64,000 nt of DNA from Piscicola geometra (lineage: Eukaryota; Annelida; Clitellata; Hirudinida; Piscicolidae): positions 1,152,634 through 1,216,633 of the forward strand of contig OX030960.1 in assembly GCA_943735955.1 (NCBI GenBank), in the 5' to 3' direction. Under the pieces are notes generated by a model. It ran no database searches and was not told the DNA's origin. It was given only the letters and a program-made list of their open reading frames with translations. Shown here piece after piece: positions 21,301-24,300 of this stretch. Position numbers and translations under genes: made by a program. Within the stretch, counting starts at the first letter, position 1. Each line of letters starts with the position of its first letter.

Positions 21301-24300
21301 CTACCTAAACTTTAGCTGAAGTTTTGGGATGCCTTAATGACAACTTCATTAATACAAACCCACTGGTTTTATACTCAAAGGTGTGTATTGTTGCTAAAAA
21401 GAGAATAAATCTAACAAAAAAGAGAAAACTAGGATAATTCATGAATTTTTTTCTCCATCTTCAAAAATAAATGTGCCAAAAGTGTCTTTGAACACATTTT
21501 ATTTGGAAATTGTTCAAAAACAATACTATTAACTGTTCAATCCAAAAATGAAGAATTATTCACTCTCGCTTTTTATTGTTAATACAATTTAGTTTTGTTT
21601 AAATAATTATCATTCATTAAATATTGTTCATTCTCACTTTTTATTGTTTATACAAATTTCGTTGTTTTATTGAAATAATTATCATTCTTTTAATATTATT
21701 CATTTTCGCTTTTTATTGTTAATACAATTTTTTATATATATTCAAATAAGTAGAATTTCGTTTTCTATTCCAACATAAAGTTTATGTGCTTTTATAGATT
21801 TATTTATTTTTGTAGAAAATAAACGGTTTAAAATCTTTTATTTTATTATGAATTAATTTTTTTTAGATACTACTTTCTTTTTTTTAAATACATGATCTTG
21901 CCAAGTTTCAACATTAAATGACACTCATCAAAAAAGTTATAATGAAATAACGTCGCGACGTCGTCCCGTCAAACTCTTATGTATTATTTTGGCTTATGCA
22001 TTGAAAATAATTCGCCAAACCGCTCACTTTTCGAGAGTTTAAAAATTGAATAACTTTTGAACCATTTGAGATATTTGGAAACTGTAAACTGATTTGAAAT
22101 CTGCACTTCAAAATCTATCATAGGAATATTATATTTTTTAAATTAATAGATTTTGAAAATGTCGTGGTGGTTGCTACGTATAGGAGAGCCACTGTAGGAA
22201 GTGGAGAAGTCGTTTCGTCGTGCCGCAGAAAAAGAATCTTCGTCATTTCTTGTCTGGCCATGCTCGATGATGATGATCGCCACCCACCAAACATCACCAC
22301 TACGCATTAGTGCATTCAATCATCATTCCTACTTCAGCGTTCACCTTCACCATCACTCACCACCATTCATTCTCAAGCATTACCACTCACCACCACTGCA
22401 ACAAGGTTTTGAAGGCGAGGGACATGGTGATGAGTGAAGAGGTGGCAGTAAAGGTGATCAAGAACAAGAAGCCCTTTCTGAAACAGGCTCGCATCGAAAT
22501 CCACCTCCTCGAACTCATCAGAGCCAATGACCCCGACAAGAAGAGTGGTGTTGGTGAGTGGTGTTGGTGAGTGGTGTTGGTGAGTGGTGTTGGTGAGTGG
22601 TGTTGGTGAGTGGTGTTGGTGAGTGGTGTTGGTGAGTTATGTTGGTGAGTGGTGTTGGTGAGTGGTGTTGGTGAGTGGTGTTGGTGAGTGGTGTTGGTGA
22701 GTGGTGTTGGTGAGTGGTGTTGGTGAGTGGTGTTGGTGAGTTATGTTGGTGAGTTATGTTGGTGAGTGGTGTTGGTGAGTGGTGTTGGTGAGTTATGTTG
22801 GTGAGTGGTGTTGGTGAGTGGTGTTGGTGAGTGGTGTTGGTGAGTGGTATTGGTGAGTGGTGTTGGTGAGTGGTGTTGGTGAGTGGTGTTGGTGAGTGGT
22901 GTTGGTGAGTGGTATTGGTGAGTGGTGTTGGTGAGTGGTGTTGGTGAGTTATGTTGGTGAGTGGTGTTGGTGAGTTATGTTGGTGAGTTATGTTGGTGAG
23001 TGGTGTTGGTGAGTGGTATTGGTGAGTGGTGTTGGTGAGTGGTGTTGGTGAGTGGTGTTGGTGAGTGGTATTGGTGAGTGGTGTTGGTGAGTGGTGTTGG
23101 TGAGTGGTGTTGGTGAGTGGTGTTGGTGAGTGGTGTTGGTGAGTTATGTTGGTGAGTGGTGTTGGTGAGTTATGTTGGTGAGTGGTGTTGGTGAGTGGTG
23201 TTGGTGAGTGGTGTTGGTGAGTGGTGTTGGTGAGTTATGTTGGTGAGTTATGTTGGTGAGTGGTGTTGGTGAGTGGTATTGGTGAGTGGTGTTGGTGAGT
23301 GGTGTTGGTGAGTGGTGTTGGTGAGTGGTGTTGGTGAGTGGTATTGGTGAGTGGTGTTGGTGAGTGGTGTTGGTGAGTGGTGTTGGTGAGTGGTGTTGGT
23401 GAGTTATGTTGGTGAGTGGTGTTGGTGAGTTATGTTGGTGAGTTATGTTGGTGAGTGGTGTTGGTGAGTGGTATTGGTGAGTGGTGTTGGTGAGTGGTGT
23501 TGGTGAGTGGTGTTGGTGAGTGGTGTTGGTGAGTGGTATTGGTGAGTGGTGTTGGTGAGTGGTGTTGGTGAGTGGTGTTGGTGAGTTATGTTGGTGAGTG
23601 GTGTTGGTGAGTTATGTTGGTGAGTGGTGTTGGTGAGTGGTATTGGTGAGTGGTGTTGGTGAGTGGTGTTGGTGAGTGGTGTTGGTGAGTTATGTTGGTG
23701 AGTGGTGTTGGTGAGTTATGTTGGTGAGTGGTGTTGGTGAGTGGTGTTGGTGAGTTATGTTGGTGAGTGGTGTTGGTGAGTTATGTTGGTGAGTTATGTT
23801 GGTGAGTGGTGCTGGTGAGTGGTGTTGGTGAGTTATGTTGGTGAGTGGTGTTGGTGAGTTATGTTGGTGAGTGGTATTGGTGAGTGGTGCTGGAGAAGGG
23901 TGTTCGGGAAGTGTGTGAAACAATGACAAATCAGTGGAGGTCATCATTTTCACATCCACCTCTACCATCCCTAAATTTGATCTTTTCCTCCAAGAACACT
24001 CTTTCAGTTGGCCCTTCTCCATCTCTTTCTTCTCCACTCTAGCACGACTCTTTCGTCACAAATCTACCTCACCACCACCACCACCACCACCACGGCAGTT
24101 CACATGTACAGATACTTCATGAGCTCAGGCGACTGCAATGAGCAAGTAGGCCACTTGTGTCTCGTCTTCGAACTCCTTTCGTACAACCTCTACGACCTCA
24201 TCCGCAACACCAACTTCAAAGGGGTCTCCCTCAACCTCACTCGCAAGTTCGCGCAGCAACTGTGCACTGCTCTGCAATTCCTCGCCTCCAAGAAACTCTG

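Follow-up and report, generated by a model that had tools for sequence, protein, structure and literature searches.

The window is the whole stretch of DNA analysed here, 64,000 nucleotides of Piscicola geometra (G000:C6:1152634-1216633; the genome comprises 171 Mb in 66 contigs). In a comparison that scored the 8,000 candidates with the most shared words, a CDK20-like open frame of this genome (L041) had the leech Helobdella robusta as its best named relative among the 120 listed, at 77%, and two unnamed proteins stood at 90%, which most likely places the genome with annelids close to leeches. The window contains a DYRK1 kinase gene. Six spliced exons, from 15442-16170 to 27310-27621, encode the kinase domain. 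The second visible intron of the gene model, 22554-24098, begins with an array of 13-bp units. The features of the locus are as follows.

15442..16170, plus strand: upstream DYRK1 exon, 5' limit uncertain, ending GKGSFGQ| (open frame, gene model)
22406..22553, plus strand: DYRK1 exon (VLKARD...DPDKKSGV) ending in the phase 1 donor TTG|GTGAGT (gene model, DYRK1A alignment)
22543..23904, plus strand: 13-bp tandem array, a mirage-type minisatellite, with its first 11 nt exonic (TRF and unit-by-unit reading)
22554..24098, plus strand: intron that starts with the array; a (CAC)n run closely precedes its acceptor (sequence, gene model)
24099..24406, plus strand: next DYRK1 exon (VHMYRYF...CKRSQR, catalytic loop) (gene model, DYRK1A alignment)
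24633..24779, plus strand: DYRK1 exon (gene model, DYRK1A alignment)
24906..25073, plus strand: DYRK1 exon (gene model, DYRK1A alignment)
25176..27283, plus strand: C-rich array filling most of intron 25074-27309, with a 22-bp row to 27191 and a 4-bp row to 27283 (TRF)
27310..27621, plus strand: DYRK1 exon with donor CAG|GTGAGA (gene model, DYRK1A alignment)
27627..29666, plus strand: 36-bp G/T-rich array, from position 6 of the intron after exon 27310-27621 (TRF, sequence)

The best solved relatives of the spliced query are DYRK1A kinases (PDB 7a4r_A, E 2.1e-116 for the whole query). The 120 best relatives listed have 54-58% identity and, where named, are mostly DYRK1 or minibrain kinases. 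The open frame at 15442-16170 is preceded by an apparent acceptor, and no in-frame start was found within it, so more DYRK1 exons probably lie upstream. The numbering as exon 3 and intron 3 in the initial annotation is provisional.

Splicing at the first donor would place DPDKKSGV next to VHMYRYF, and this join aligns gapless with TEMKYYI-VHLKRHF of DYRK1A. DYRK1A reads DTEMKYYIVHLKRHF at this junction. Because the alignment crosses the junction gapless, the first donor fits the protein, and on this fit TTG|GTGAGT, in phase 1, is the authentic DYRK1 donor. The exon ends in KSGV. KYYI or KYYV stands there instead in 78 of the 88 homologues parsed by pattern (32 of the 120 were left unparsed). 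The three changed residues, SGV, are encoded by the repeat (22543-22553). This counts against the exon as the source of the DYRK1 array, since the repeat may have overwritten its end; alternatively, an exon end that had already changed may have seeded the repeat.

TRF reads 22543-23904 as a single array with a period of 13, 104.8 copies, 92% matches and 0% indels. Read in the register of the donor, it contains 104 units from 22554 to 23905. The units are GTGAGTGGTGTTG (68 copies), GTGAGTTATGTTG (23), GTGAGTGGTATTG (10), GTGAGTGGTGCTG (2) and one decayed last unit, which breaks the hexamer. GTGAGT is present in the other 103 units and occurs six more times on the plus strand of the window. The initial annotation had described about 103 junction-like 13-bp units, each with a consensus donor. 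The array is real, and a consensus-like donor is present in nearly every unit (103 of 104). The annotation had also equated the unit with the exon-intron junction itself, and this holds: the unit tail is the last 11 nt of the exon (22543-22553), with all 11 nt matching. The 9-mer TTG|GTGAGT is common to 102 of the 103 array donors. Chance is not a serious explanation for the array. The order of the unit variants has no clear higher-order period by autocorrelation, which counts against resolving the steps of growth. A false expansion in the assembly can practically be discounted, given that the four unit types follow in irregular order and that comparable arrays are found in other genes.

All 103 donor choices were translated. 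Only the first leaves the whole model open. With the second, the frame changes and a stop follows shortly. The other 101, from the third onward, bring in an in-frame TGA a short way past the first junction. Since none of the 102 downstream donors keeps the frame, the array is not a set of backup donors, as had been suggested for it. Backup use of the downstream donors is excluded at the protein level. Unproductive use of them may still occur.

Similar arrays were found in other genes. Among the matches listed, eight clusters of forward GTGAGT triplets lie on contig C1 up to 1.08 Mb. Three are sense arrays that take in the end of an exon (L038, L075 and L076), in PSMC3-, DRP1- and GANAB-like genes. 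Two are antisense near an acceptor (L077, ABC transporter; L079, WW domain). One is antisense near a donor (L009, WD40-like; the donor is inferred). Two have no settled class (L037, and L078, which holds no regular array). The Pfam matches of the three junction-array genes are AAA (1.5e-25), GED (9.6e-14) and GH31 (6.2e-13), respectively.

In the PSMC3-like gene, the exon ends DELDAIGTKR and is followed by a 32-bp unit with variants of the exon end ATCGGAACTAAGAG. Against 26S regulatory subunit 6A, the 5'-most donor leads gapless into FDSEKAGDREVQRTMLELL. Exon tail and unit match exactly over 4 nt in the first unit and over as many as 12 nt in a later one.

In the DRP1-like gene, the exon ends RDCVVI and the 32-bp unit contains the exon end GTTGTCATTG. 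The 5'-most donor runs gapless into ERLIRSYF against dynamin-1-like protein. The exon tail matches the first unit exactly over 10 nt.

In the GANAB-like gene, the exon ends DYEGWCWPG and the unit is 29 bp, with the exon end GTTGGCCTG in later units. The 5'-most donor joins TSIWMDYT with no gap at the join against neutral alpha-glucosidase AB. The exact match is 1 nt in the first unit and up to 10 in later units.

The exon ends of these three genes encode residues shared with solved relatives, so in each case the exon is older and the array is the copy. These arrays suggest that junction arrays are common in this genome. There may be hundreds genome-wide, by extrapolation from one contig end. 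Also on C1, the minus strand of 711258-715283 (L082) holds an array that extends over at least 4 kb; its 14-bp unit is AGGTGAGTGAAGGA, and AG|GTGAGT often recurs at 14-bp steps.

Arrays of this kind are known from lancelets as 'mirages', reported in PMC3087553 and PMC3902484 as tandem repeats across exon-intron boundaries that do not disturb splicing. The initial annotation had stated that no such system was described, and these reports overturn that. The lancelet mirage genes named are Adh3, the globin genes BflGb6/BflGb9, troponin C and PGBD5; PMC3902484 adds PGBD5 and cites troponin C. According to PMC3087553, the units are 10-72 bp in Adh3 and 150-160 bp in a globin gene, their length is unstable and splicing is regular. 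The DYRK1 array, read from a single assembled haplotype, is likewise a boundary-spanning tandem repeat of short units, many of which carry a splice signal. It starts 11 nt inside the exon, has GTGAGT in all units except the decayed last one, and lies in a protein-coding gene between conserved exons that join without a gap. It differs in copy number, with about 104 units of 13 bp, and in its place at a 5' boundary in an annelid; the lancelet globin mirages also occur at 3' boundaries and with few copies of 150-160 bp units. The DYRK1 array is most probably of the mirage type. Its copy number is striking, and there is a hint of wide spread within one genome. No annelid array that includes a splice junction was found among the matches listed in the open-licence literature.

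Three other systems are related. Human duplicated genes also contain internal tandem repeats at exon-intron boundaries, but there the repeats are associated with alternative splicing and intron gain in paralogues of recent origin (PMC2812944). Tandem 5' splice sites likewise place several donors close together (PMC2423196). They are reported to give highly similar isoforms, whereas only one of the 103 sites in the DYRK1 array keeps the frame. Earthworm metallothionein genes share minisatellite arrays in annelid introns, but inclusion of a splice junction is not described in the excerpt of PMC12783039. In the Rogers model of intron gain by tandem duplication, cited in PMC3087553, the intron is new at its position and has copies of a single exonic segment at both ends; in the DYRK1 intron a (CAC)n run precedes the acceptor.

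We consider it very probable that the junction was duplicated repeatedly, that the array has been tolerated, and that splicing proceeds from the outermost copy. Growth by duplication of the junction, one of the two alternatives offered in the initial annotation, is the best reading in view of the 11-nt identity of exon tail and unit tail and the like arrays in three genes. A short segment consisting of the last 11 nt of the exon and the donor (GAGTGGTGTTG|GT) would have been duplicated in tandem. Slippage or unequal exchange would then have expanded it on the intron side to about 104 units. Splicing would have continued from the 5'-most copy, the sole donor that keeps the frame open. The remaining 102 would be by-products, either ignored or yielding stop-containing mRNA. 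The first donor may win because of the adjacent exon or because it is transcribed earliest. A G/T-rich intron start may make growth of an array likelier or better tolerated. Use of the first donor is predicted here from homology only; the mutational steps, and tolerance without selection, are our inferred reconstruction.

A regulatory role would use the same donors differently. The 102 extra sites would divert pre-mRNA to stop-containing, degraded transcripts, and copy number would set the dose of DYRK1. DYRK1A is dose-sensitive in other animals, which counts for such a role. Every downstream choice leads to a stop. The shared 9-mer (102 of 103 donors) also counts for it, since the site's nine letters do not distinguish these donors. 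Against it, similar arrays are present in unrelated housekeeping genes (PSMC3-, DRP1- and GANAB-like), and lancelet mirages are reported to have no effect on splicing (PMC3087553, PMC3902484). We regard this role as improbable. The broader proposal is improbable to the same degree: a copy-number dial in which frame-breaking donors set productive DYRK1 splicing, with the same in many genes and arrays perhaps in hundreds.

The initial annotation had also raised the possibility of a decoy array, and we found no positive evidence for one. Here selection would keep the donors as binding sites for U1 or as a reserve for the true site. The hexamer is undamaged in 103 of 104 units, and all four columns that vary among the intact units fall outside it. 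This position has a chance probability of 0.05 for four columns and 0.12 for three events (GG-to-TA counted once), and we make no claim of selection on the hexamer. Recent homogenisation would equally leave the hexamers intact, and the would-be backups yield no open frame. Clusters of the same motif are also antisense in genes (L077, L079 and L009), so both orientations relative to genes occur. Genome-wide, donor-motif clusters were not above the reversed-motif control (16,498+17,390 against 28,380+29,653), and a second count was likewise below it (348+606 against 2,348+2,706); such raw counts are not counts of mirages, as both patterns occur within repeats rich in G and a single array can be hit many times. 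Retention as a decoy or buffer is therefore highly unlikely.

Base composition could also place donor-like rows at intron starts. The 5' parts of introns in this genome tend to be G-rich and the 3' parts C-rich, and any minisatellite at an intron start would resemble a row of donors. GC skew was measured in 23 introns of kinase genes and 5 of DYRK1, 28 in all. The mean was +0.26 in the 5' 60 nt (positive in 18 of 28) and -0.44 in the 3' 60 nt (negative in 22 of 28), with both signs in 14 of 28. A TRF array with a score of at least 40 was present in 15 of the 28. Five arrays in the 23 kinase introns have a score of at least 100, and each is at most 30 nt away from a splice site (0.0026 under random placement), with both cut-offs picked after the table was inspected. 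These results favour composition as the source, as does the polarity of arrays at donors and acceptors given below. Composition explains the setting but not the exact recurrence of at least 10 nt of exon in the units of four genes, and as a full account it is very unlikely. None of the 23 kinase introns has an array that includes the exon end, so junction arrays belong to a minority of introns.

The kinase introns were drawn from 36 loci, which surround some of the 147 listed PF00069 matches. These loci were L039-L068 (the best matches) and L069-L074, of which L069 and L070 duplicate L049 and L060. Boundaries were set by hand in 7 of the 23 introns, where the top candidate was missing or implausible (the second of L046, both of L056, that of L062 and three in L073). 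The second intron of L066 was excluded.

Polarity was scored on the sense strand for 18 arrays beside splice sites, a small hand-picked set (5 from the window, 7 from kinase introns and 6 from C1 clusters) in which L057 and L072 have TRF scores below 100. Arrays were G-rich at 7 of 9 donors and C-rich at 9 of 9 acceptors (Fisher p 0.0023). The two exceptions, counted as such, are L009 and the first intron of L068. Two arrays reach near both ends of their intron and were counted as acceptor arrays: that of DYRK1 intron 25074-27309 (103 and 26 nt from the ends) and that of L077 (about 48 and 38 nt). Without them the counts of G-rich to other arrays were 7/2 at donors and 0/7 at acceptors (p 0.0032). 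Strand bias of intronic tandem repeats is already known, for example from Daphnia (PMC3152781).

Outside the polarity count, the PSMC3- and GANAB-like introns, which are C-rich in their 3' parts, agree with the rule. So does an exon at about 360-500 of L083, which we take to be RtcB-like. The exon's acceptor is preceded by a C/A-rich repeat, and its donor is directly followed by a G-rich one.

Since many introns seem to start G-rich and end C-rich, pairing of an intron's own ends was tested. The sample was the 16 of 28 introns of at least 170 nt. Own partners gave -29.1 and swapped partners -29.0 (permutation p 0.48), and hairpin introns were rejected.

The mirage-type reading extends a phenomenon described chiefly in lancelets to a distant animal group. 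The locus is also a natural test of splice-site choice, in which 102 of 103 donors share nine letters and the outermost alone is productive by frame. The design recurs in other genes with units of 29-32 bp. Clean use of the first donor would mean that the choice depends on exon context or transcription order and not on the nine letters.

The window contains other repeats and elements. The C-rich array at 25176..27283 starts 103 nt from the donor and ends 26 nt from the acceptor, with a sense GC skew of -0.99. The array at 27627..29666 has a sense GC skew of +0.98. Its unit lacks GTGAGA, hence it is not a junction repeat. The G/T-rich arrays at 27627-29690 (36 bp) and 32130-32612 (39 bp), in the intron that follows the last DYRK1 exon found, seem to be parts of a single array split by a non-LTR retroelement at about 29690-32100. 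A 1.5-kb C/A-rich array at 57592-59122 ends beside a probable acceptor, and the two reading frames after it had no Pfam match. An exon of a Dopey (DOP1) gene lies at 44478-44828 (Pfam Dopey_N, 1.3e-44), and a C-rich array at 44187-44437 ends about 37 nt before its acceptor. A non-LTR reverse-transcriptase-like element lies at 11700-13720, and its tail contains GCGCTATATAAATG.
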